A DNA stretch of 50,232 bases. It comes from Clostridia bacterium (GTDB taxonomy: Bacteria; Bacillota; DTU025). The stretch is taken from assembly GCA_034926675.1 (NCBI GenBank), contig JAYFQW010000049.1, forward strand, positions 1 to 50,232, written 5' to 3'. The translations under genes were made by a program, and so were the position numbers. This document shows, piece after piece, positions 7,251-50,232 of the stretch; the first letter of the stretch is position 1, and each line of letters opens with the position of its first letter. The notes beneath the pieces were generated by a model. It was not told where the DNA came from. It worked only from the letters and a program-made list of their open reading frames with translations, and ran no database searches.

Positions 7251-8349
7251 GCAGCGCAGCGACCAGCTCACGCCTTCGAAAAAGGGCACAACCGCCAGTC
7301 GTTTCGCCGAGCTCTTCGTGGTGGTCGCGTATGGATTTCAGAAACGAAGAATTCAGTGCATCCTTCAGAGACATCCCCCCGAGGCTCGCATCGGAGTACG
7401 GCGCGAACGGACACGGTTCCACATCTCCCCCGGAGCTGATGTGCACGAACCCACGGCCTGCCGCAAGGCATCCGCCAGTGGCCTCCTCATCTCCTGGAAA
7501 GGCCACGAAAAGCGCGGGCATCCGCGAACGCAGTGATTCGACTCGAGCCATGAGTTCTCCGCGCTGATTGGGGGTGAGCTCCCACTCCTGGGTTCCCTCC
7601 TCCACGGGCACGTACTCCACAAAGAAGAAAATGCGGCACCCGCTGGATACGAAATCAGATACGAATTCGTCGCTCGTGATCATGTTTACAGTGTCTCGCC
7701 GCACAGTGAGAGAGGCGCCGAAGAAGACCCGCGCCTGCTGAAGTTGTACGGCAGCGCGAGATATCCTCGCCCACACACCGTCGCCCCTCCGGTCGTCGGT
7801 AACGTCCTGTCGGCCCTCAACGCTTATCACAGGAACTACGTTCCTAAGCCTCCGCAGGCGATCTGCCATGGCGCCATCGATCAGCACGCCGTTGGTGAAC
7901 ATGGGGAAGATGATCTCTGGATACCGCGCGGCGACATCAAGCAGGCCCTTGCGGACCAGGGGTTCGCCACCTGCAAGCATAACCACGGATATGCCAAGCT
8001 CGCGTCCTTCATCAAGCGCCCGAGTGAGCGTGGCGTCGTCCATGTCCCCCTTCTCCGCGCGAGCCTGAGCATGTGCATAGCAGCCCTTGCAGTGAAGATT
8101 GCAGCTAGATGTGACGCTTATGATCATGAAGGGCGGAACATGAACGCCCTGTTTCTCCCATCGAGCCCGCGTGTCCTGCGCCCTCCGCTGCCAGTTCATG
8201 ACCTTCAGCATATACGCTGCCTGGCTCGGGTCCTTAGCGCAGATCCGCGCCGCAGTCCCGAGCAGGCTGATCAGCCCGTCGTTATACGGCGCCAGGTAGT
8301 CGAGTTTCTCACCTGCACCCACGTGTGTCACGCTCCCTGCTCTACTCAT
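7228..8349 (-). CDS. Radical SAM protein with C-terminal three-cysteine (twitch-like) region
   Basis: A 373-residue radical SAM enzyme. C83-x3-C87-x2-C90 (CNLHCKGC) binds the SAM-cleaving 4Fe-4S cluster, and GGEP at 127-130 contacts SAM. The C-terminal part has isolated cysteines at 294 (GGCLAAG), 313 (VEPCPFAP) and 354 (GGCALF). This spacing resembles a reduced SPASM or twitch domain binding a second cluster, as in enzymes that modify peptides. The start at 8349 overlaps the end of the upstream ABC-2 permease gene by 8 bases. Placement at the end of an ATPase/permease/permease run suggests its product or substrate is exported, but no precursor peptide was found. The reaction is unknown. Confidence 0.88.
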   Translation of the reverse strand: MSRAGSVTHVGAGEKLDYLAPYNDGLISLLGTAARICAKDPSQAAYMLKVMNWQRRAQDTRARWEKQGVHVPPFMIISVTSSCNLHCKGCYAHAQARAEKGDMDDATLTRALDEGRELGISVVMLAGGEPLVRKGLLDVAARYPEIIFPMFTNGVLIDGAMADRLRRLRNVVPVISVEGRQDVTDDRRGDGVWARISRAAVQLQQARVFFGASLTVRRDTVNMITSDEFVSDFVSSGCRIFFFVEYVPVEEGTQEWELTPNQRGELMARVESLRSRMPALFVAFPGDEEATGGCLAAGRGFVHISSGGDVEPCPFAPYSDASLGGMSLKDALNSSFLKSIRDHHEELGETTGGCALFRRRELVAALLSESQRR

Positions 8350-9589
8350 ATTTCACCGCCCGAGCGCCGAAGGCGAGGAACGCCGCGGAGAAACCTAGCA
8401 GGATCAGGCAGCTTCGCAGCACCTCCGGGCTAGGTCCGCTCTTCTTCACAATTAGGTCGATTAGAGCCGCCACGGCGTGCCGCTGGGGAAACAGCACGGC
8501 CACGCGCTGCACGACCGTGGGCATTATCTCAAACGGCCAGTAGACTCCGGCAAGCATGGACGTTGGCAACAGCACGATATTAGTGAACGTGACAACCTGT
8601 GCATGGGTCTTGGCGTATGCTGCAATCAACAGACCAAGGCCAACTGAGGCCAGTATCAGGCTTGTAAGAACCAACCACACCCATACCGGCGAAGAGCCCC
8701 ACTCCACCCGGAACAGCCATCTGCCTCCCAGCATCAGCACTGCGCACTGCAGCCAACCTATGGAGAGCAACCCCAGGAGCTTCCCGAAAAGCACCACTCC
8801 GCTTCCGGTCGGGGTGGAAAGCAGCCTGCCCCAGGTTCCCTGCTTCTTCTCCACCAGTATCTCTCCGGCCCCGATGGCTGCGCCAGCCATGACGAACATG
8901 ACCAGGAACCCAACTGATGTCTGTTCCAGTGGACGCTGAGGCACACTGGCATTTCTCTTCTCAGCCCCGCCCGACACCGGCATCTCCTCCAGCGCCACAG
9001 GCGGGCCGTCGTTCCATGCTGCATCCACCGCCGCTGCTGCATCCGCACTGATTCCCTCCGGCGCCTGCACCGGAAACCCACCGCCAGGGTCAGCCGCCGC
9101 ATCCGCCGCGGCAACGCTCGATCTGAGCCGCAACACCACCGCTCTCACGGTGGACTCTATCGCGTGTCCTTCCCCGCCCGCCCCCTCTGGAATCACTACA
9201 AGCACTGCGCAGGGACGCAGCTCCGAAAGCGCCTCGTGGAACCCGACCGGCGCCACTATCGCTGCATTCGCCTTGTTATCCCGCACCATCTCCAGCGCTG
9301 CCTTCTCTGAGGGAACAACCTCCACTCTGATGGATGATGGAAGCAGCTCCGCCAGCCTTCGCGAGGAATCCGACTGGTCAAGATCTGCGAGCGCGACCGG
9401 AACGCCCATCGGCGCCGAAGCTGAACCTGGCCCCCAGCTTGGGGCTAGCATCAGCCCCACAAGCCCAGTGAAGAGCAAGGGAAACAGCACAAGATTCACA
9501 ACGGCAGATCGGTCACGTATGGTGTCAATCAGCATCAGGCGTGCGATTGCAAAGGCCTTGCGCATCCTCTGTGCATCCCCTTCATTCAA
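8342..9589 (-). CDS. ABC-2 type exporter permease (second of pair)
   Basis: A 415-residue membrane protein with the ABC-2 layout: one N-terminal helix (VVNLVLFPLLFTGLVGLML), a large extracytoplasmic domain, then about five helices in the last 200 residues, including an AGAAIGAGEILVEKKQGTW stretch typical of the family. It forms a heterodimer candidate with the product of the gene just upstream. TTG at 9589 opens the frame and overlaps the upstream stop; ATG at 9565 (MRKAFAIARLML) is a plausible alternative. Substrate unknown. Confidence 0.88.
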   Translation of the reverse strand: MNEGDAQRMRKAFAIARLMLIDTIRDRSAVVNLVLFPLLFTGLVGLMLAPSWGPGSASAPMGVPVALADLDQSDSSRRLAELLPSSIRVEVVPSEKAALEMVRDNKANAAIVAPVGFHEALSELRPCAVLVVIPEGAGGEGHAIESTVRAVVLRLRSSVAAADAAADPGGGFPVQAPEGISADAAAAVDAAWNDGPPVALEEMPVSGGAEKRNASVPQRPLEQTSVGFLVMFVMAGAAIGAGEILVEKKQGTWGRLLSTPTGSGVVLFGKLLGLLSIGWLQCAVLMLGGRWLFRVEWGSSPVWVWLVLTSLILASVGLGLLIAAYAKTHAQVVTFTNIVLLPTSMLAGVYWPFEIMPTVVQRVAVLFPQRHAVAALIDLIVKKSGPSPEVLRSCLILLGFSAAFLAFGARAVKYE

Positions 9590-10805
9590 GCCTCAACCTT
9601 GCAGTTCCGATTCCGAACAGTAAAACCCCAATCGCGGCCAGGGAAATGCAGTTCGAACCTATCTCAGAGAGCCCCGCACCTGCGAAAATCCGTGAGAATC
9701 CATCCATCGCCCAGTAGTTCGGCGTCAATTTCGCGAGGGCAATCAGCGCCTTCGGGTAAACCGCTATCGGGATCATGCTCCCGCCCAGAAGCGAGATAAC
9801 CTGTATCGCGATGGAGCTGATGGTGTTCACACCACGCCGGGATTTCGACACAGTCGATAGAAAAACGCTCAGCCCGGCGCAGCCAAGGATGGTGCACGCT
9901 GATAGGGCGAGAAATGCCCAGGGTGCGCTCCCCCACTTCACGCCGTACGCGAGCCTAGTGAAGACCACAAGAACACCCCATTGCGCCGCCCCGATAGCGA
10001 AAACGGATACGAGTTTTCCCGCGAGTATCTCGCTCTTCCGGGTTGGAGTGGACATCAGCCGCATCAGAGTGAAGTCATCCCGCTCGTCGAGAAGCGACTT
10101 CGCCCCCAGCATCATGCTGAACATGAGGTACATCACACCCATGCCGGCTGAGTAGTATTCGAATGAACTCACGGCCTTTCGGGTGCTAACGGTCCGGGTG
10201 ACCACCTCAGGCCCAAACGCGCTCATCCTCGCCCACACCGCCCTGCCAGCCTGCGCAGCGAGGGAAGCTGCCCATTCGGGGTCGGGCGCTCTGCCAGCTC
10301 CCGCGGCGGCCTTGATCCACTCCTGCGCCACTGCCCCCGTGGCTATCTCCGTGGCAGACACCTGTGTGGCGAAGGATCCGACTACACCGCGCAAAAGTGG
10401 CGCGACAACCTGCGAAGCAGGGTCGAACAGAACAGTCAGTGCGGAATCCTGGCCAGTTGTGACCCTAGCCGTGAAGTCCTCCGGTATAATGATAGCCGCT
10501 TTCAGCTTGCCTTCGAGAATGCGCGACCTTGCCTCCTCCTCCGTGAGGCGCACCTGCGTGAACATGGCGGAGAGCTCCGGGGCGCCAAGGAACTCATCGA
10601 GAAACACCCTTGCCAGTTCCCCTTCGTCCAGGCGCACTATTCCGACATCTGCCTGTATGGCGCCGCCTCTTCCCGAGAACATCGGCCCAAGGGCGAATCC
10701 GAGCACAAGGATGATGATCATCGGCTGGACGATCATCATGGCCAGAGCATGCCGGTCCCTGGCGATGTTCCTGATATCCTTGAGGATGATGGCTGCCGCT
10801 CTCAT
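9582..10805 (-). CDS. ABC-2 type exporter permease (first of pair)
   Basis: A 407-residue ABC-2 permease: N-terminal helix near residues 20-40 (MMIVQPMIIILVLGFALG), a long outside domain, and a C-terminal bundle beginning YYSAGMGVMYLMFSMMLGAKSLLDERDDFTLMR, which contains the family's conserved E-R-x-x-x-T element. ATG at 10805 is chosen because AAGGAGG lies 5 bases ahead; the frame is open to 10823. It sits 14 bases after the ATPase stop and overlaps the second permease gene. Bacterial relatives export antibiotics, lipids or peptides; nothing here decides between these. Confidence 0.9.
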   Translation of the reverse strand: MRAAAIILKDIRNIARDRHALAMMIVQPMIIILVLGFALGPMFSGRGGAIQADVGIVRLDEGELARVFLDEFLGAPELSAMFTQVRLTEEEARSRILEGKLKAAIIIPEDFTARVTTGQDSALTVLFDPASQVVAPLLRGVVGSFATQVSATEIATGAVAQEWIKAAAGAGRAPDPEWAASLAAQAGRAVWARMSAFGPEVVTRTVSTRKAVSSFEYYSAGMGVMYLMFSMMLGAKSLLDERDDFTLMRLMSTPTRKSEILAGKLVSVFAIGAAQWGVLVVFTRLAYGVKWGSAPWAFLALSACTILGCAGLSVFLSTVSKSRRGVNTISSIAIQVISLLGGSMIPIAVYPKALIALAKLTPNYWAMDGFSRIFAGAGLSEIGSNCISLAAIGVLLFGIGTARLRLE

Positions 10806-39406: not shown

Positions 39407-39781
39407 CTATTTGCCTCCGCCCCCAGTGTCCAGCTTCGCCAGGTATACATCCGGCGCCACCACGTTGGCCCCTTTCTGACGAAGCTCCACGGTGATCTGG
39501 ACTTTCCCGTAGTTCTCCTTGGAGAACTGAACGGTGTACTTGTCGCGCCTCAGCGGCGGGCTGAACCACAGCCCTTCAAGGCTAGTAGGGCAGTCAGCCG
39601 TGTATTTTGGATCCGATGCAGACGTAATCGTAACCTGAACACCGGGAATGGCGACTCTGTCAGACCCGGATAGCTCATATACCGCACCGCTCACACTCGC
39701 CGATCCGAGGAAGTAGAGTGTGCACCCTCCGGCCAGAAGGCATAGAGAGAGCACGGAAACTGCCAACAGCACACGCTTCAT
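39407..39781 (-). CDS. Small lipoprotein with carboxypeptidase-regulatory-like beta domain
   Basis: A 124-residue secreted lipoprotein: signal peptide MKRVLLAVSVLSLCLLAGGC with the lipobox LAGG-C at residue 20. The mature part looks like a single beta-sandwich: SGAVYELSGSDRVAIPGVQVTITSA, then a G-L-W-F turn and YTVQFSKENYGKVQITVEL, as in CarboxypepD_reg/CnaB-like domains used for stability or binding. It ends GGGGK. ATG at 39781 is chosen because GGGGGTG precedes it and the signal peptide starts there. Function unknown. Confidence 0.78.
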   Translation of the reverse strand: MKRVLLAVSVLSLCLLAGGCTLYFLGSASVSGAVYELSGSDRVAIPGVQVTITSASDPKYTADCPTSLEGLWFSPPLRRDKYTVQFSKENYGKVQITVELRQKGANVVAPDVYLAKLDTGGGGK

Positions 39782-40001
39782 GCGCGCACCCCCGTTCCTC
39801 ACGAAATCATAACGCATATGGGCATTTTCGACAGATACCGCTGAGTCTCCTGCATCGAGCGTAAGGCTATGCCGCAGCTGAGCGACCAATGGGCCACGAA
39901 ACACGCGACAAGTGCCCGGGGGCGTATCCATCGCTAGCCTGGAGCGTATCTGGCGCATGTCTGGCTGGGCGCTCCGTCAGGCGAGCGATTCCGGCAGTAG
40001 C

Positions 40002-41390
40002 TCAGGCCAGCTTCTCAAACTCAGCCGTGAAATGCCTGAGCACCGGCGCCTGATAGGTGATCCTGAGCCCCTTGACCAAGTCACGCCGGGCGAGTATGCC
40101 CTCAAACGCGGCCGCGACGCGCTGCATATGCCTATCGGTGTAGACTCTCCTTGGCACGGCCAGCCTCACGAGCTCTAGCTGCGGGTATATTGGCTCTCCA
40201 GTGTTTGGGTCGGTCCGCCCGAACGCGCATGTTCCCAGTTCCACCCCGCGAATCCCGCCCTCGATGTAGAGCTCCACAGTGAGGGCCTGCGCCGGGAACT
40301 CCGCCTGCGGGATGTGGGGCAGGACCTCCTTGGCATCCACATACACCCCATGCCCTCCTGGCGGGGTTATGACCGGGACTCCCGCATCAATCAGCAGCTC
40401 AGCAAGGTAGGCGACTTGCCCGGTTCTATCCTCGAGGTAGTCTTCATTAAGGACCTCTGAAAGCCCCGCTGCCAGAGCCTCCATATCGCGCCCGGCAAGC
40501 CCTCCGTAGGTGGCGAACCCCTCGAACGGTATGACCCACTGCAGAGCGCGCCTGTATAGATCGCGATCCCGAAACGCAAGGAATCCGCCCATGTTCACAA
40601 GGCCGTCTTTCTTTGCGCTCATCATGCACCCATCACCGTATGAGAACATCTCCCGTGCTATCTCGATGATGCTCTTGTCGGCATAGCCAGGTTCGCGGGT
40701 CTTGATGAAGTAGGCATTTTCCGCGAAGCGGGCGCAATCGAAGATCATCAGCACTCCGTGCCTGTGGGCAATGGCGCTCGCGGACCTGATGTTATCCATC
40801 GACACCGGCTGCCCGCCATTGCTGTTGCATGTGATTGTCATGATAACGAATGGCACGACGCTTCCGCTGTGAACTGCGAGTTCGCGATCCAGGGCGTCGA
40901 GGTCGATGTTTCCCTTGAAAGGCTCATCGCTCTCGATTACGTAACCCTCAGGCCTCAGGAGGTTCACCGGCTCCGCGCCTCGGAGGAGGATGTGACCTTC
41001 AGTGGTATCGAAATGCATGTTCCCGAGCACTCGCTGCCCTGCCTTCACAAGCGTCGTCATGAGCACATGCTCGGCCCCTCGGCCCTGATGGGTCGGGGCC
41101 ACAAACTCGTATCCTGTGATGCTGCGCACCGCATCTCGGAGCTTGAAGAAGCTCTTGCTGCCGGCGTACGCCTCATCGCCAAGCATCATCGCAGCCCACT
41201 GCGAATCGCTCATGGCCGATGTGCCGGAATCAGTGAGGAGATCGATGTACACGTCCTCCGATCTGAGGTTGAACACATTGTAGCCCGCCTCAAGGATGCT
41301 CTGGACCCTCTCTTCCCTCGTGGTCATCTTGATGGGCTCGACCATCTTGATCCGGTACGGCTCTGCGTAAGAGTCTCTAGACCTCAACAC
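40002..41390 (-). CDS. tnaA: Tryptophanase-like beta-eliminating lyase
   Basis: A 462-residue PLP enzyme of the tryptophanase/tyrosine phenol-lyase family, which splits the amino acid into indole (or phenol), pyruvate and ammonia. Family motifs are LLTDSGTSAMSDSQWAAMM, GDEAYAGS, THQGRGAE (100-107), FDCARFAENAYFIK and the PLP lysine K261 in SAKKDGLVNMGG. At the position of the arginine that binds the phenol ring in tyrosine phenol-lyases (usually MERG), this protein has VELG, nearer to tryptophanase (VEIG). Tryptophanase is therefore favoured, not proven. The start is GTG or the adjacent TTG near 41390, behind GGGGGG. Confidence 0.87.
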   Translation of the reverse strand: MLRSRDSYAEPYRIKMVEPIKMTTREERVQSILEAGYNVFNLRSEDVYIDLLTDSGTSAMSDSQWAAMMLGDEAYAGSKSFFKLRDAVRSITGYEFVAPTHQGRGAEHVLMTTLVKAGQRVLGNMHFDTTEGHILLRGAEPVNLLRPEGYVIESDEPFKGNIDLDALDRELAVHSGSVVPFVIMTITCNSNGGQPVSMDNIRSASAIAHRHGVLMIFDCARFAENAYFIKTREPGYADKSIIEIAREMFSYGDGCMMSAKKDGLVNMGGFLAFRDRDLYRRALQWVIPFEGFATYGGLAGRDMEALAAGLSEVLNEDYLEDRTGQVAYLAELLIDAGVPVITPPGGHGVYVDAKEVLPHIPQAEFPAQALTVELYIEGGIRGVELGTCAFGRTDPNTGEPIYPQLELVRLAVPRRVYTDRHMQRVAAAFEGILARRDLVKGLRITYQAPVLRHFTAEFEKLA

Positions 41391-42975: not shown

Positions 42976-43617
42976 TCACCAGCCAGTGTAGGTTCCGAAC
43001 CCAAATCCTCCTGCGGACATGCCAGCCATTCCGGCGCTGGAAGCTCTGGCCCTGTATTCGCATCTGCCGAACTTGATAGTCATGGACTCCATTTTCCAGC
43101 CAGCCGTGGTCTTGACCATGCCGACACTGATGAATCCGCTGTCGGACCGCCATTCGGGGATGCTAGTTGTCTTCTCGTACACCTCGAAGGATCCCGTCGC
43201 CTCCGCCGTCGACCCGACGATGGTCGCCACTGCCCATCCGTTGATACTATCCATGACGCCAGGCACATCCATGGCAGCGGCAGAGCCGTCGATATCCAGC
43301 CTGATGACATAGCCCTTGGTCATCCGAAGCAGGGCCTGTTCATCTATGTCAATGCTGATCTCGCTACGAAGCCGGGCAAGGTCCTTTGTCTCAGTGCTCA
43401 TTCCTTCCTTAATCGTAAGCCTGAAGCCAGCGGCCATGACGCCGTCTCCTGCCATGGCATCCATCTCGTATGCTTCCACCCCACGCACCCAGCTGTTGAG
43501 GGCGGCCATCACTTGCACTCTCTCCTGCGCCCCATCTATTGGCGTCTGGAGCGTACACCCGGAAAGCAGGGCGGTCATAAGTGAAAGCAAAACCAGGGCC
43601 CAGGTTCTCTTTGCCAT
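42976..43617 (-). CDS. Lipoprotein with C-terminal GFGFGTYTGW (cassette 2)
   Basis: A 213-residue lipoprotein. The signal peptide MAKRTWALVLLSLMTALLSGC places the lipidated cysteine at 21. The body has NSWVRGVEAYEMDAMAG, a short helix-rich part, IRLDIDGSAA, and a beta-rich end with WRSDSGFISV and GWKMESMTIKFG; it ends GGFGFGTYTGW. This matches the 217-residue paralogue at 47481-48134 along its length. The fold recalls small nuclear-transport-factor-like beta sheets but I cannot assign it. ATG at 43617 follows GGTGGGAG. It lies 99 bases after the large Ig-repeat gene, mirroring the other cassette. Confidence 0.82.
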   Translation of the reverse strand: MAKRTWALVLLSLMTALLSGCTLQTPIDGAQERVQVMAALNSWVRGVEAYEMDAMAGDGVMAAGFRLTIKEGMSTETKDLARLRSEISIDIDEQALLRMTKGYVIRLDIDGSAAAMDVPGVMDSINGWAVATIVGSTAEATGSFEVYEKTTSIPEWRSDSGFISVGMVKTTAGWKMESMTIKFGRCEYRARASSAGMAGMSAGGFGFGTYTGW

Positions 43618-43716
43618 TCCAGCTCCCACCTTTGCAGGCATTGTCAGATGCCCCCACAGCGCTCACTCAAGCGTGCGCACGCCCGTGAAAGTTGCCGGGA
43701 TCCGGTGCGTCGACCG

Positions 43717-46700
43717 CTACAGGTGGATCCGACCGAATCCAAACCCGGTGCGCCCCGGGACGATAATGTAGGTTCTTCTTGCGGTCTCACCACCCACGCT
43801 CACCACGAGAGTCAAGGTCGGGCCACCCGCAAACACCGTTTCATCGATCAGGACACATCGCCTCGTCCGGCCCATCGTCACCACGTGCGCGGCGTCAAGC
43901 TCGACGGCGTTGACCGTCACACTGATCCTGGCGTCTACAAGGCCGATTACCTCGATCTCTATCGTGGATACCTCGTTGATCCTGTATGATCCTTCCGGCG
44001 GCGAGAGCACGCGCACCGCAAGCCCAACGACGGTTACGTCCGGGAAGACGGCGTCTGGTCCGATGGCGCCCGCCCGGTCTTCGGCTCTGACTCTGAGAAT
44101 GTGATCGCCGGCATCTACCGTTCTCACAAGCGCGGCATCTGTCGTCCAGGTTCTGCTCGCCCAGTCGTCGAAGGTGAACCAGTATCCCTTCACGCCGGTC
44201 CCAACGTCCGTTGCAGACCACTCCCACGTAACAGTGGAGCTGTTCGTCATGACGACGGACGCGGGCGACACCACTGTGACCTCAGGACCGATCGTATCGA
44301 CCACGACGTATCCAGGTTGGGATTTCCCGCTCTCATTGCCGGGTTTGTCTACCGCAGCGATTCGAATGTAGTGAGAGCCCTCGGAAAGATCAAAACTGGG
44401 AGTCCATGCTGCTGCCGACTGGGTCACGCCCAAAGCGACAGCCGCACCGTCGAGGAACACCCGGTACCCGGCAGCGCCATCAACCTCTTCCCAGTCCCAC
44501 GTCGGCCTGGGATTGCAGGTTGACGTTGTCGTAGTGGGCGTTCCGGGCACTGCGGGAGGGGTTGTATCGACGGCAAACCGGCAACTGGGATCGGCGATGC
44601 TCACCCATCCCGACGTGTTGCCGGCAACGTCCCTCGCGCGTATGCGCACCTCATACTCCCCGTCCGCCAGCGGGGTCGTCTTCCATGCAATAGTGCCGCT
44701 TAACGGCACATCGGCGGGCGCAGGAGGCGGAGCGTCGTCAACGTCCTCGTCGTCGATGTCGATGAACGTGTTCACCACGTCCCAGGAAGGGCTTCCGAAC
44801 CGCCTGATCTTCACCTCGTACCCATCAACACCGGATTGGGCTTGGCCCGGGCGCTGATCAGTGGAATGCGTCCAGACCAACGTGGGCATTGTGCTGGCAA
44901 TGCGCCTGCCTGTGCCCAACCCGGCGACATCCGGCGCTCCAGGATCGCTTGGGGCGTCGCCATCGAATGTGAAGGGCGGATCAAACCATGCGGAACCGTT
45001 CTCCACCATATCCCATGCCCTTATCCAGGCGCCATAGGACACGCCTGACCGAAACGGGAGTTCGTTGCCGACTGTGCACCAGTCACTGCCCGTTCCAGTG
45101 GGCATCACAGGCCACCGACTGCCGCCCGAAGGCGCCTCCCATAACTTGGACCCGGTCGGAATCGTGTCGCCCGGGCTCTTCGTCCACACCTGAAGCTCAT
45201 ACCCATGAAGCCCGGACCCGGACACTCCGTCTGTGCTGCTCGGATCTGTTGAAGCATCCCACGAAACAAGAGGTGCGCGGCTATTCGTGAACCGGGCTCC
45301 ATTGGCGGTGTTGATGTTTCCAACAGCTGCTTCGCCAAAAGCAGAAGGAGGAGAGCTGTCGACCACAAAGACCAGACGGCCGCTGCTCGTGCTGCTTATC
45401 GAGGCCTCATTGCCTGCGTCATCCACCGCTTCAACCTTCACGTAGTAATCGCCATCGGGCATTACAGCATTAGGCCACCATTCCGCAGCCCACTCACCGC
45501 TGTTTGCGGTGGGTCTGAGCCCGAACGCAGTATCGCCAACAACTTCGCTTTGCATGCCGCTGTCCGCGTACACGCGGACCCTAAAATGCCCCCGAAGTGG
45601 GTCCGTTGCGTCGTTGAGCCCGGACCCTCCAGGGTTGTCGATCACAGTCACTTTGACCTTAGGCTGTGTTGCTGCTGTGTAGACGACTCCACCGTTCTCA
45701 TACACAGGGCCCTCGATCTGCCAGCTACGGAGCCCGGGGGCTACGGTGTCGAGCAGGAACCCCCAGCTCGAGGGGATCGCAGGGTATGCTGACGTGTTGC
45801 CGATCCTGTCCTGAGCGCTTACACTCAGGACGTATGCGCCATCAGCCGATATCGGCCTGTCGGGTACGAAGGTCGACTTCGATGACGCATCATCCCATGT
45901 AGGTTGGCCGATCACCGCAACACCAGCCGGCCCTGTCATGGTCCAGATAACGCTGTTGGGCGCCAATCTCGCGCCTGAGTCGCTGATTATGATGCTAGGC
46001 GCAATGCTAGTGTTGTTCGTCTCAAGGCCGCTCACGGGCTTAGGGTCGGAGAACACCGGTCCATGCCTGTCGACGTTGAACCGGAACGTCTTCTCGTCCG
46101 ATGTGTTAGGCTTCGAATCTGACACTCCGACTCGCAGCCAGTGGGCGCCCTCGGATGGATTAGCTACCGTGATTCTGATCCTTCCTCCCGTGTAGCTAGA
46201 GCTGATCGCACCGCCGCCCAGATCAGACGCGACTGTGATCGAAGCCGAGTTAATGCCGCTGCTAGGGGCAGCATCCCGCACACCCACGCTGACCACGCAG
46301 TTGGCATCTGATAACCAACAGTTATCGAGCGGGTCCCACGTCATCTCATCGATGACGGGCTTGACTGTATCGTCAACGACAAAATCAACCGCTTCCGAAG
46401 CGTCATTGCCCGATCTGTCGGAAGCGACCAGCCGCAGCGTGTGAGGACCGTAGGCCAGGTCGTCGAGCACAATGGTGGCTGTGCCTGTCGTTTGGTTGTA
46501 GCTCCTCGACGTAATTGTGCCGCCCCCCGAAAGGCTTGGCGCTATCGCGCTTACGCCCGCGGTAGGGTCAGCTATCTGAACAGTAAACACCTGGTGAGTC
46601 CGGTTCGGCAGCGTTGTTCCAGAGACCGGAGTCCATCCGCTGATCACGGGGGCAGTCTTGTCCATGCAGACTGCTCTGACCTGTACTGCATCCGTAGATG

Positions 46701-47067
46701 GCGAGCCCGGGGGGCCAAGCCGTGCACTTGCATGCGCATCCATCCAGCCCTCTGCCGCCCCGCTGATGTCCACTACTGACGTGAACGTGACATGCCCGGA
46801 TGCGCCGACGGTCTGCGGGCCCGCGGTCGCGATCGGCGAACTGCCTACAGATGAGTCGAGGTAGACGACATCCCCGGGGTTCGCTGCAACAGTGACGGCC
46901 ATGGCAGCCGTCGTTGTTCCCGCCTTCGCATACTGTGGCGCCCCGGTTGTGGGAGAGTCAATCTGGACACTCGCTATGCTAGCCACGGCATAGCCCGCAC
47001 CGGCCAAGGACGCTGCAAACAGCGCCACAGTGATCGCCGCAGCCAGTCTGCGCCAGGATGGTTTCAT
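43717..47067 (-). CDS. Large secreted Ig/FN3-like repeat protein ending GFGFGRIHL (cassette 2)
   Basis: An 1116-residue exported protein. A signal peptide (about 1-32, SLAGAGYAVAS) is followed by about nine to ten beta-sandwich repeats, each ending in a D-x-x-GN-x-S type strand and opened by VDTxxP linkers (VDTVAPG, VDSSPPSA, VDTTPPAVPG, VDTIGPEV). These are bacterial Ig-like or fibronectin-type domains. The last ~95 residues form a different domain (INEVSTIEIEVIGLVDA to the end) shared with the neighbouring giant protein, finishing RTGFGFGRIHL. No LPXTG, SLH or choline-binding anchor is visible. The likely role is adhesion or surface structure. ATG at 47067 has GGGGAGAC ahead; the frame opens at 47097. 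Confidence 0.87.
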   Translation of the reverse strand: MKPSWRRLAAAITVALFAASLAGAGYAVASIASVQIDSPTTGAPQYAKAGTTTAAMAVTVAANPGDVVYLDSSVGSSPIATAGPQTVGASGHVTFTSVVDISGAAEGWMDAHASARLGPPGSPSTDAVQVRAVCMDKTAPVISGWTPVSGTTLPNRTHQVFTVQIADPTAGVSAIAPSLSGGGTITSRSYNQTTGTATIVLDDLAYGPHTLRLVASDRSGNDASEAVDFVVDDTVKPVIDEMTWDPLDNCWLSDANCVVSVGVRDAAPSSGINSASITVASDLGGGAISSSYTGGRIRITVANPSEGAHWLRVGVSDSKPNTSDEKTFRFNVDRHGPVFSDPKPVSGLETNNTSIAPSIIISDSGARLAPNSVIWTMTGPAGVAVIGQPTWDDASSKSTFVPDRPISADGAYVLSVSAQDRIGNTSAYPAIPSSWGFLLDTVAPGLRSWQIEGPVYENGGVVYTAATQPKVKVTVIDNPGGSGLNDATDPLRGHFRVRVYADSGMQSEVVGDTAFGLRPTANSGEWAAEWWPNAVMPDGDYYVKVEAVDDAGNEASISSTSSGRLVFVVDSSPPSAFGEAAVGNINTANGARFTNSRAPLVSWDASTDPSSTDGVSGSGLHGYELQVWTKSPGDTIPTGSKLWEAPSGGSRWPVMPTGTGSDWCTVGNELPFRSGVSYGAWIRAWDMVENGSAWFDPPFTFDGDAPSDPGAPDVAGLGTGRRIASTMPTLVWTHSTDQRPGQAQSGVDGYEVKIRRFGSPSWDVVNTFIDIDDEDVDDAPPPAPADVPLSGTIAWKTTPLADGEYEVRIRARDVAGNTSGWVSIADPSCRFAVDTTPPAVPGTPTTTTSTCNPRPTWDWEEVDGAAGYRVFLDGAAVALGVTQSAAAWTPSFDLSEGSHYIRIAAVDKPGNESGKSQPGYVVVDTIGPEVTVVSPASVVMTNSSTVTWEWSATDVGTGVKGYWFTFDDWASRTWTTDAALVRTVDAGDHILRVRAEDRAGAIGPDAVFPDVTVVGLAVRVLSPPEGSYRINEVSTIEIEVIGLVDARISVTVNAVELDAAHVVTMGRTRRCVLIDETVFAGGPTLTLVVSVGGETARRTYIIVPGRTGFGFGRIHL

Positions 47068-47480
47068 TGGCCCGTCTCCCCTCACGTGGATTGACAACCA
47101 CGATTACGCACCTTGAACCGAACCCTATCGTGCGTCGGTTGATCGACTTGGAGGGCTCAGTCGGCAGATGTCCGTTCATTACAGGAAATACTGGAGATAT
47201 ACGCCACATCTCAGCCAAATGCTTTGATATGCTCGGAATTATCCGGGAATGGTGGATCAGGCAGCCAATCGACAATCTCCCAAATTGCCTGCTAAACCCG
47301 CAGCTGAATTCTCCATCGTCCGCAAATCTCATCTGGAAAGCCCGCATCCCCGCCGGCTGCCATGCGCAATATAGGCAAAGGCGGGCACGACACCCGCGCC
47401 CGCCTTTGCTGTGATTCGCATGTTTTGGCAGCTCTGGAGCCCGGCCTCAGGAAGTCCCCGCTTCCCCTACCGGCCCTCAG
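47068..47480. other. Gap between cassettes
   Basis: About 410 bases with no supported gene. Apart from the hairpin at 47376-47408 it is somewhat richer in A+T than its surroundings (47180-47300), so it may hold the promoter of the downstream Ig-repeat gene. I could not pick a clear -10/-35 pair. Confidence 0.5.
47376..47408. terminator. 11-base-pair hairpin after cassette-1 lipoprotein gene
   Basis: caaaggcgggc (47376-47386) and gcccgcctttg (47398-47408) pair perfectly around an 11-base loop, 73 bases past the lipoprotein stop. No long T-run follows. The core aggcgggc/gcccgcct is the same as in the hairpin at 42896-42928, so the hairpin belongs to the duplicated cassette. Confidence 0.6.
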
Positions 47481-48134
47481 CTACCAGCCAGTGTAGGTTC
47501 CGAACCCGAATCCAGTGGGCTCAGAAGATCCGGTTCCGTCCAGGCCAATTGAGGCATGTGGGTAGTTCCCGGACCCGTACTTCAGCAGCATGGATTCCAT
47601 CTTCCAGGCGTTCGGAAGCCTGATCAGGTTGATCTTGATGGATCCGCTGTCGGAGCGCCAGTACGGAGCGTAAGGGCCGCCGACGGTTCCATTATACGTC
47701 TCGTACACCTCGAAGAATCCAGTGACCTCCGCCTTCCGCGCGTCAATGGACACGATGGTCCAGGCGTTCACGATGTCGTCCACTTCGTGCTTATCCACAC
47801 CGCCATCTACTGCTCCGTCGATATCGAGACGGATCTTGTACCCTCTATCCCTTCGGAAAAATGCCTGGTTCAGTTCATCTTCCTTCAGTTCCTCTAGGAG
47901 TCTCCCCAGAGTCTTGCATGTTCCCCCTATGTTGAGCCTGAATGCTGGAGCCATGATGCCCGTTCCTGCCATGGCATTGACATCGTACTCTTCGACTCCA
48001 GCCACCCAGCCGTTAAGAGCGGTTATCACAGCTTGCCTCTCCAGCGCTTCGTTGAACGGCGGCTGGACCACGCACCCAGCGAGGACCACCGTCATCAGAA
48101 TGAGCGCTGCGAGGTATGCTGACCTCTTGGCCAT
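47481..48134 (-). CDS. Lipoprotein with C-terminal GFGFGTYTGW (cassette 1)
   Basis: A 217-residue lipoprotein, signal peptide MAKRSAYLAALILMTVVLAGC with lipidated C21. Shared blocks with the 42976 paralogue are the MAKR start, ALNGWVAGVEEYDVNAMAG, G-I-MAPAFRL, IRLDIDGAV, VTGFFEVYE, YWRSDSGSI, AWKMESMLLKYG and the end TGFGFGTYTGW. The last 24 coding bases before the stop region are identical in the two genes, indicating recent duplication, conversion or strong constraint. The gene starts 96 bases after the preceding giant gene stop. Confidence 0.82.
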   Translation of the reverse strand: MAKRSAYLAALILMTVVLAGCVVQPPFNEALERQAVITALNGWVAGVEEYDVNAMAGTGIMAPAFRLNIGGTCKTLGRLLEELKEDELNQAFFRRDRGYKIRLDIDGAVDGGVDKHEVDDIVNAWTIVSIDARKAEVTGFFEVYETYNGTVGGPYAPYWRSDSGSIKINLIRLPNAWKMESMLLKYGSGNYPHASIGLDGTGSSEPTGFGFGTYTGW

Positions 48135-48230
48135 TCTGGCTTACCCTCCTTTGCGGGCCTGCCCGCGCTGTCTTCCCAGGGCCGAGCGAAGGCGCACGCG
48201 CCCCCGCCCGGCTTGCCGTCGTTCAGCTAG

Positions 48231-50232
48231 TTACCAGGGGCGCAGGCGGCCGAATCCGAAGCCACTGCGCTCTGAGAGCACTTGGTAGTCGAAGGATCTC
48301 GTGATCTCGCCGATCTTGACCGTAATCGTCATCGGGCCGGGCTCCATCACCGCATCGTCAAGCAGGATGTAGAACTTGGCGATGGCTGGCGTGTTGGTGA
48401 TCGTCACGATGCGCCAGTCGTGCTCAAGCGGTTCGGCGCCCATGAGCACCTCAACAGGCGCATCATATAGGCCCACGACGCTGAAGGCTATCGTGGACAC
48501 CTCGTTGATGGGATGCTCGCCAGGCGCTGGCATCGCATCGTAGATCATCACGTTCACGAGGTTGACTGAAGGCGCCACGGTTTCGGCGCTCTCGTTTCCG
48601 ATTCCGTCTACGCCCTTGACCACCAGGACATTGTCTGCAAGCCGGAGCGACTTGCATGTGTAGCTGGATTCGGTCGTCCACGACCACGCTCCGCCGTTCA
48701 GCCTCACCCAGTAACCCTGGACTCCTGCGCCATCGTCAGTCCCCGACCACTTCCACGTGAACGTGGCTATGTTAGTGCTAACTTGCTGTGTCGGAGTCGT
48801 CACCGAGACGGACGGGCCGGTGCGGTCAACCGTTGTGGAGACCTCTTCAGACCACTCAGAGACATTGCCCAATGCATCGTAGGCTCTGACCCGCCCTCTG
48901 ACGGACCGTCCATCTCCGACCTCCGAGATGTCCACAGTCTTGCTCTGAACCGCGATTCGCTCAGGCTCAGTCCAGTTCGCTTCACCGACGGTGCTGCAGG
49001 TGAAATCGTATCCCACTACATCGCCTACTGAGGACCAAGAGAATGTCACTCTGTTCTCGCTGGTGTGCGTCGGCAGCGGCGACATCTCCGGGACTGGGGG
49101 CGCGGTTCGGTCGACCAGCACACTGCCTGCAGCCGACCTGGCAGACTCGTTGCCCAGAGTATCAATGGCCGTGATCTGCAAGTAGTGAGTGCCTTCAGTC
49201 AGGTTGGTTGACTGGTAACTCAGATCCGTGACGAAGCCCTTGTCGGACTTATCCTCGTACACGCGGTACTTCGCCGCGCCATCCACCGCAGTCCATGCCC
49301 AGATCGTCCTGAGTGCATTGGTGGGACTTGCAGTTGTTGGGACGTCTGGAACCGCAGGCGCTGTCGTATCCACTGTGAAGGTCAGCGAACCGGAGTATGT
49401 GCTCCAGTTGCCCAGGCCGTCGCCTGCTTTCACCCTCACAGTGTGCACGCCGTCGGCCAGGCCCTCGGTGAACTCGTAGGATGTCCCGGTCGTGCTCATC
49501 CAGCCTTGTCCGTCGATCTCAACCGTGTACCCTACGGCATCGACCACGGAGTTCCACTTCACCTTGGGCGTGCCGTCGGTGGTATACAGAATCCCGTCGA
49601 TGAGCGTGCCGGCAGGCTCAGTGAGATCCAAGCCGGCGGGCGATGCAGGCGCCACCGTGTCGACAAACACGGAGCCAGCGACGGACCAGTTGCCTGCGTT
49701 TCCTAGGGCATCTGTGGCCCTGACCCGCAGGTATCTGGTGACGCCGTTGCCAGTGAACTCCGTGACGTATGTGGCAGCGTTGCCTACGTCTATGAGGTCG
49801 CCCCAGGTCTCGCCATCCGCGGATATCTGCATCTGGAACGTTTTCGCATCCTCGACATAGTCCCACTGCCAGTGCTGCGTGGGTTTGATCGTCGGATTCT
49901 CGTCGGCCTTCGGCGCATGAGGCGCCACAGGACCGGTGAGGTCGATCACCACATGGCCAGTGGCGGAGACGTCGCTCTCGTTTCCTAGCGCGTCGATAGC
50001 CGTCACCTGCAGGTGGTGCGCACCTTCAGCAAGTCCGACCGTGGTGTAGGTCGGCACTTCCACGTTGGCGATGAAGCCGTCGTCAAGGTATACGTTGTAG
50101 CTCACCGCGTCCGCCCCGGAAGAAACCCACACCCATACAGGCGAGGTGTTTCTCGTCGGGCTTGCCGTGGTCGGGATGCCCGGTATCGCGGGAGGCGTCG
50201 TGTCGATGGTCACAGCCGCGAACGCGACCTCC
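48231..50232 (-). CDS. Large Ig/FN3-like repeat protein ending GFGFGRLRPW (cassette 1), N-terminus outside window
   Basis: Partial: at least 667 codons, and the frame is still open at the window edge (the codons before the first internal GTG read EVAFAA), so the start and signal peptide lie beyond 50232. Repeats of about 90 residues open with (V/I)DTTPPAIPGIPTT and contain Y-x-V-Y-x-D, EG-H-x-LQ-T-A-I-D-LGNES. At least six are visible. The last ~100 residues (PINEVSTIAFSVVGLYDA to RSGFGFGRLRPW) match the end domain of the 43717 protein. Same inference: a surface fibre or adhesin. It heads the first of two duplicated cassettes. Confidence 0.88.
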   Translation of the reverse strand, partial: EVAFAAVTIDTTPPAIPGIPTTASPTRNTSPVWVWVSSGADAVSYNVYLDDGFIANVEVPTYTTVGLAEGAHHLQVTAIDALGNESDVSATGHVVIDLTGPVAPHAPKADENPTIKPTQHWQWDYVEDAKTFQMQISADGETWGDLIDVGNAATYVTEFTGNGVTRYLRVRATDALGNAGNWSVAGSVFVDTVAPASPAGLDLTEPAGTLIDGILYTTDGTPKVKWNSVVDAVGYTVEIDGQGWMSTTGTSYEFTEGLADGVHTVRVKAGDGLGNWSTYSGSLTFTVDTTAPAVPDVPTTASPTNALRTIWAWTAVDGAAKYRVYEDKSDKGFVTDLSYQSTNLTEGTHYLQITAIDTLGNESARSAAGSVLVDRTAPPVPEMSPLPTHTSENRVTFSWSSVGDVVGYDFTCSTVGEANWTEPERIAVQSKTVDISEVGDGRSVRGRVRAYDALGNVSEWSEEVSTTVDRTGPSVSVTTPTQQVSTNIATFTWKWSGTDDGAGVQGYWVRLNGGAWSWTTESSYTCKSLRLADNVLVVKGVDGIGNESAETVAPSVNLVNVMIYDAMPAPGEHPINEVSTIAFSVVGLYDAPVEVLMGAEPLEHDWRIVTITNTPAIAKFYILLDDAVMEPGPMTITVKIGEITRSFDYQVLSERSGFGFGRLRPW

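Follow-up and report, generated by a model that had tools for sequence, protein, structure and literature searches.

A C-terminal GFGFG tail on giant repeat proteins and many of their neighbouring lipoproteins marks a candidate surface-display system of diderm Bacillota

Why should two unlike kinds of exported protein, encoded side by side, end in the same short peptide? The question is raised by the window analysed here, a stretch of 50,232 nucleotides that makes up the entire contig C49 of a 3.38-Mb, 90-contig Clostridia genome, in which four consecutive minus-strand genes carry a GFGFG tail directly abutting the stop codon. The first-pass annotation had pointed out this arrangement and had taken the tail for a terminal tag shared by exported proteins. 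The arrangement was confirmed, and the tail proved to be conserved at the C-terminus of the giants and of most of the lipoproteins. Two of the genes are short and encode a lipobox, and the two long ones encode Big_13 Ig-repeat proteins, the upstream of which is cut at the contig end. We give about even odds (probability roughly 0.5) to the reading that these genes form two units of a system by which diderm Bacillota display surface proteins, consisting of a giant, a lipoprotein and an outer-membrane barrel. Since the lipoproteins often share the tail of the giants, and a lipoprotein gene and usually also a barrel gene adjoin the giant gene, the tail probably serves this set as the tag for recognising and displaying the giant. 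The relevant features of the window are as follows.

48231..50232, minus strand: 3′ part of a putative giant Ig-repeat surface protein with Big_13 and OmpL47-type repeats, N-terminus beyond the contig end
48234..48548, minus strand: conserved C-terminal domain of this upstream giant including the tail (alignment A1, E 2.4e-48); 6 genomes of the order encode homologues
48234..48269, minus strand: tail RSGFGFGRLRPW of the upstream giant, near-invariant among relatives
48181..48212, minus strand: RNA hairpin of 14 bp separating the stop of the giant from the start of the lipoprotein, a folded stem (z −1.7, alone not significant)
47481..48134, minus strand: NTF2-like lipoprotein of 217 aa, lipobox LAGC, NTF2/cystatin-like fold by AlphaFold and Foldseek
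47484..47516, minus strand: tail TGFGFGTYTGW of the 217-aa lipoprotein, behind a disordered linker (residues 188-217, pLDDT <50)
43717..47097, minus strand: putative giant surface protein of Ig repeats, 1126 aa as called, bearing a signal peptide and six Big_13 stretches
43720..44019, minus strand: C-terminal domain of the second giant (alignment A1, E 2.4e-33) with tail RTGFGFGRIHL at 43720-43752
42976..43641, minus strand: second copy of the NTF2-like lipoprotein, lipobox LSGC, 48% identity to the first copy
42979-43011, minus strand: tail GGFGFGTYTGW of the second lipoprotein copy, ending at the stop
40002..41390, minus strand: tryptophanase/beta-eliminating lyase-like gene, identified by sequence reading only, which in relatives lies beside either the barrel gene or the lipoprotein gene

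The true start of the 1126-aa giant is more likely the ATG at 47067, and for the second lipoprotein copy a start at 43617 is more likely than the called one. The tryptophanase-like gene is a conserved neighbour and is not proposed as a member of the system.

The GFGFG tails in the window are not a product of chance. The corresponding codon pattern had 10 matches in the 3.38-Mb genome, seven of which encoded C-terminal tails (four in the window, two on contig C75, where a third giant-lipoprotein pair lies, and one at the end of a frameshifted giant on contig C9), the other three being internal or non-coding. Among ORFs of at least 150 aa in all DNA fetched, GFGFG or GYGFG occurred 125 times in the last 24 residues before the stop against 10 times at other positions, a count that overlapping loci enter repeatedly and to which many loci fetched for the motif itself contributed. 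Most short-ORF matches of degenerate tail patterns were non-coding frames and were set aside. The Gly and Phe codons of the tails varied freely, glycine using all four third bases, which indicated that selection acts on the peptide rather than on the DNA; this synonymous variation ruled out a DNA- or RNA-level element as the role of the tail.

At the protein level, the nine tail columns of 12 aligned giants showed 97% mean identity versus 60% for the rest of the C-terminal domain, where the best other nine-column window reached 79%. The giants' end ERSGFGFGRLRPW was almost unchanged, and the lipoproteins ended in a looser version of it (GFGLGRLSP, GFGIGRAKR, CFGFGRLPTREGW, GFGFCKLVP). All these tails are 9–20 residues long and follow a soluble domain or a linker, with no hydrophobic helix. 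Their position directly behind the last domain of the giants would suit a tail that does nothing but close the Ig-like domain, for folding or protease protection, with the lipoprotein copy a result of gene fusion or convergence. We consider this explanation improbable, because the tail is far more conserved than the domain that it would support and because the lipoprotein motif sits behind a variable disordered linker with no Ig domain before it.

To define the distribution of the tail, the pattern GFGFG[R/S][L/F] was run over 398 genomes of the phylum and the matches were read frame by frame, which yielded true tails in five further families. Giants with the tail RxGFGFGR[L/F] were present in 18 of the 398 genomes, belonging to eight families (f1, f2, f23, f42, f51, f81, f89 and f92), and a profile of the giants' last domain retrieved one distant relative, G178, in which the giant ends RRGFGFGRLWFE and is directly followed by a tail-less lipoprotein of the same kind. 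The passengers differed between families, with Ig or FN3 repeats in most of them and leucine-rich repeats in f23 and f42; in two of the leucine-rich giants (L107, L110) a Big_13 Ig-like domain lay immediately ahead of the tail. The same tail on differing passengers is what a putative sorting or anchoring domain looks like, and its near-invariance on a diverging domain, on Ig/FN3 and leucine-rich giants alike, is in keeping with a modular signal. Among named public records, the nearest were unclassified Bacillota metagenome genomes (UBA5389, THP_Bin_8, STF2_119 and DTU025). Within the collection of papers searched, none combined GFGFG with C-terminal and outer membrane, and other searches yielded analogues only.

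The first-pass annotation had gone further and suggested that the tail might be a sorting signal, in which case several exported families should carry it. This was not supported, as C-terminal tails were found on giants and one lipoprotein family only. Pattern searches of the window's own genome, 12 relatives and the 398 genomes revealed no third tailed family, which led us to reject a general sorting signal and therefore to favour a dedicated system.

The second component, the lipoprotein, proved to be one family over all eight families of tail-bearing genomes, with 10 invariant columns that include the lipobox cysteine (alignment A4). Several genera of the window's family and a sister family possess it, adjoining the giant wherever the contig permitted. 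The gene after the tailed giant encoded the NTF2-like lipoprotein in 26 of 30 loci (a count including L019 and L027), and the giants without an intact lipoprotein behind them were the C9 remnant, G001:C20, one giant of G005:C83 and G091:C177. Among 80 Omp85-positive genomes, the lipoprotein occurred in 14/14 with a tailed giant versus 1/66 others; in the sole exception, G210, the contig begins inside the lipoprotein, where the giant would lie, and the barrel follows. The lipoprotein matched no Pfam family. Its AlphaFold model combined a core of pLDDT 80–88 with a disordered tail, and Foldseek against the PDB with this model returned NTF2/cystatin-like entries at E down to 1e-8. The predicted cone-shaped alpha+beta fold places the lipoprotein in the NTF2-like superfamily.

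By our own count the tail was recognisable in 23 of 28 lipoproteins and degenerate in one; the four without it belong to G178, G183, G149 and one pair of G384, and their giants keep the tail. Tail-to-tail pairing so cannot be the general mechanism, and the earlier suggestion that giant and lipoprotein assemble through their tails became unlikely. Tail-less lipoproteins beside tailed giants are, on the other hand, compatible with a lipoprotein that serves as the receptor, its NTF2-like cavity taking the giant's tail and thereby anchoring the giant in the membrane, while its own tail acts as a cavity-filling placeholder or as a link in a lipoprotein chain. Ligand cavities are common in NTF2-like folds, and the near-perfect co-occurrence and adjacency of the two genes would agree with such a receptor. 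We nevertheless regard the receptor as an unlikely explanation, given that the lipoprotein's own tail was disordered and undocked in the AlphaFold model and that the linked barrel would be left unexplained.

The aromatic tail end had reminded the first-pass annotation of outer-membrane protein ends in diderms, and the organism is diderm, with Omp85 present in its genome. Omp85 was present in 12/12 genomes of the order and in 101/398 of the phylum (25%). It was encoded by all 18 tail-bearing genomes, which are therefore diderm, versus 83/380 others (Fisher P 6e-12, kinship not corrected for; P values of this kind overstate independence, since the genomes share ancestry and the search alignments and profiles drew on tail-bearing ones). 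The genomes searched were mostly fragmented metagenome assemblies. The presence of Omp85 in every tail-bearing genome and the aromatic last residue on many tails could also mean that the tail is a BAM-type beta-signal-like end by which both proteins reach Omp85, no dedicated partner being involved. We find this very improbable: neither protein is a barrel, the lipoprotein being NTF2-like and the giant made of Ig repeats, unlike a BAM substrate; the 83 further Omp85-positive genomes are without the tail; several tails extend to acidic ends (e.g. FPDEDAD, FGEAPAEE); and the Gly/aromatic spacing is, in our reading, at odds with the usual beta-signal.

The uncharacterised membrane protein whose co-occurrence had been anticipated corresponds to a third gene, encoding a predicted beta-barrel. 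A secreted protein of many beta-strands was encoded next or next-but-one in G097, G112, G131, G149, G178, G183, G186 and G384, and in five families it was the next or next-but-one gene past the lipoprotein. Its C-terminal residue was usually F, and in most of these eight genomes an Ig-like domain preceded the strands. The AlphaFold model of the G097 protein (mean pLDDT 60) contained the Ig domain and about 24 strands. Foldseek matches at E <0.001 were nearly all outer-membrane barrels, including SlpA, LptD, FimD and porins, with SlpA as the top match; the full-length TM-scores were low (0.2–0.3), and the search resolved the class rather than the family. The third gene product is thus modelled as an outer-membrane beta-barrel whose strand closure is not certain at the model's confidence; at this low confidence any pore size or export role would be tentative.

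Of the 12 genomes searched in the window's order, 8 had a related barrel that lacks the Ig domain. It was joined to the barrel of the other families by local similarity only (E 1e-16 to 2e-10), the barrels of G000 and G008 being linked only via G001. The gene order in G001 was 5′-nucleotidase, small outer-membrane protein, barrel, three successive giant-lipoprotein pairs and tryptophanase. Both in G001 and in the genome of the window, the barrel gene directly precedes a giant; in the latter genome it occupies positions 1905-3569 of contig C33 on the minus strand with a giant start right behind it (L154, G000:C33 1-3569). That giant start, MSWTRRLWRTLPIALVIV..., is cut at the contig end, and similar openings were seen on giants of G001 and G006. 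A profile search of the 398 genomes detected the barrel in 14/18 tailed genomes versus 7/380 others, a count that scores G183 as missing, its adjacent barrel being too divergent for the profile; with G183, the barrel was present in 15/18 tailed genomes, linked or elsewhere, own genome included. No barrel was found in the tail-bearing G091, G145 and G269. Six of the seven barrel genomes without a detected tail belong to tail-bearing families, several of them on broken contigs. In G183, the barrel of the tailed operon was followed by a putative LptA/LptD-like gene (L125 5200-7113), recognised solely from its sequence.

Comparison with known systems drew attention to the type IX secretion system (T9SS), in which the giant adhesin SprB of Flavobacterium johnsoniae, by way of a C-terminal signal, needs and binds SprF, the barrel encoded next to it. 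Another T9SS case, in Porphyromonas gingivalis, adds the lipoprotein PorE to PorP and PG1035 (PMC9143113). T9SS signals are beta-sandwich domains (PMC10994853). With the type B pairs of this system our gene set shares a giant repetitive surface protein, a C-terminal domain as signal and an adjacent cognate outer-membrane barrel, and with one T9SS case (PG1035-PorP-PorE) a lipoprotein in the complex. By analogy, it would work most like T9SS type B pairs, and because of this resemblance we propose that the barrel recognises the Ig-like domain and tail, with the lipoprotein as helper. It differs in that the conserved element is a terminal peptide, carried by the lipoprotein too, and in that the host belongs to the Bacillota rather than the Bacteroidota.

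By the tests made, the set is not a T9SS. The SprA/Sov model (TIGR04189) gave no match over the cut-off in the 18 tail-bearing genomes, with short weak matches in 9. A full-length family derived from an SprA-like protein was absent or fragmentary in 10/18 tailed genomes and present in several tail-free ones; the SprA-like protein does not track the tail, and a T9SS with an SprA-like translocon as the general partner was rejected on this ground. T9SS sorting-domain models matched neither giant of the window (NCBIfam, E up to 1), and no NCBIfam match to PorP, SprF or PorV was obtained for the window-family or alignment A3 barrels. A PorV/PorQ-family protein is encoded elsewhere in the window's own genome.

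Nor does the set belong to the autotransporters or to two-partner secretion. For two-partner secretion, Pfam gave no POTRA, ShlB/FhaC or TPS match, and the giants, closed by an Ig-like domain plus the tail, matched no barrel, which autotransporters carry fused to the passenger. PEP-CTERM, GlyGly-CTERM and MYXO-CTERM signals combine a signature motif, a transmembrane helix and a basic end, and occur on many proteins per genome (PMC1569441, PMC3237569, PMC11980579). The present tail resembles them as a short C-terminal homology region common to exported proteins and detected by co-occurrence, but it is a tag without a helix on two families only, unlike CTERM/sortase-type signals. OmpM and SlpA of diderm Bacillota and Deinococcus are single proteins tethering the membrane to the wall (PMC10628300, PMC9388160). 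They are likewise large multidomain envelope barrels of deep-branching diderms, in line with SlpA as the top Foldseek match, whereas the barrel described here is linked to a separate giant and lipoprotein.

In the display system that we favour, the giant would bear a Sec signal peptide and close with an Ig-like domain and the tag RxGFGFGR[L/F]. Its partners would be an NTF2-fold lipoprotein, in most cases with a less strict version of the tag behind a flexible linker, and the outer-membrane beta-barrel. Sec would carry giant and lipoprotein across the inner membrane. At the outer membrane, the co-encoded barrel, aided by the lipoprotein, would then recognise the giant's domain and tag, so that the giant is moved to the surface and/or held there. 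Its own tag would let the lipoprotein use or occupy the same site. The tail with its conservation and modularity, the gene linkage, the fold, the diderm background and the co-occurrence are what the analysis shows. The surface location of the giants, the tag as the recognised element, its binding partner and the part of the barrel, exporter or mere anchor, are what we infer from the gene set. Tentatively, and with somewhat less than even confidence, we suggest an undescribed outer-membrane display or secretion system with its own signal, barrel and tag-copy lipoprotein that evolved apart from the T9SS. Little is known of how large proteins reach the surface of diderm Bacillota, and the conserved tag, linked lipoprotein and barrel offer a concrete, testable candidate that predicts surface proteins in at least eight families. 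The type B logic of giant, terminal signal and cognate barrel would then have arisen more than once.

Several minor features accompany these loci. GC-rich hairpins of 10–14 bp were found directly 3′ of the giant stop in four genomes (the window, L015, L016 and L018), with z-scores of −1.7 to −5.3 and without a clear U run; such a hairpin may set the giant:lipoprotein ratio. On contig C9 (L012, G000:C9, about 7810-10554), a frameshift precedes an intact RSGFGFGRLRPW end without a lipoprotein behind it, and this giant is either a decaying copy or an assembly error. At G005:C83:8529-8610, a second FGFGRL codon run lies ~60 bases past the giant's tail with no intact lipoprotein there, perhaps a lipoprotein shrunk to its tail alone. 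Between a lactate/malate dehydrogenase-like gene and the tryptophanase-like gene, the window encodes a small lipoprotein with a weak carboxypeptidase-regulatory-like domain (39407-39958), and the order dehydrogenase-like gene, small lipoprotein, tryptophanase was found again in L140. Finally, a three-gene minus-strand cluster on another contig of the same genome (L156, G000:C42, 3498-12673) comprises an S8 subtilase with a weak C-terminal match to a T9SS sorting domain, a member of the PorV/PorQ family that exceeds the NCBIfam cut-off, and a protein of 1400 residues that SprA matched weakly over a short stretch. This SprA-like protein occurs in f1, f2, f51 and further families irrespective of the tail, and the cluster is possibly a T9SS-like relative in Bacillota.
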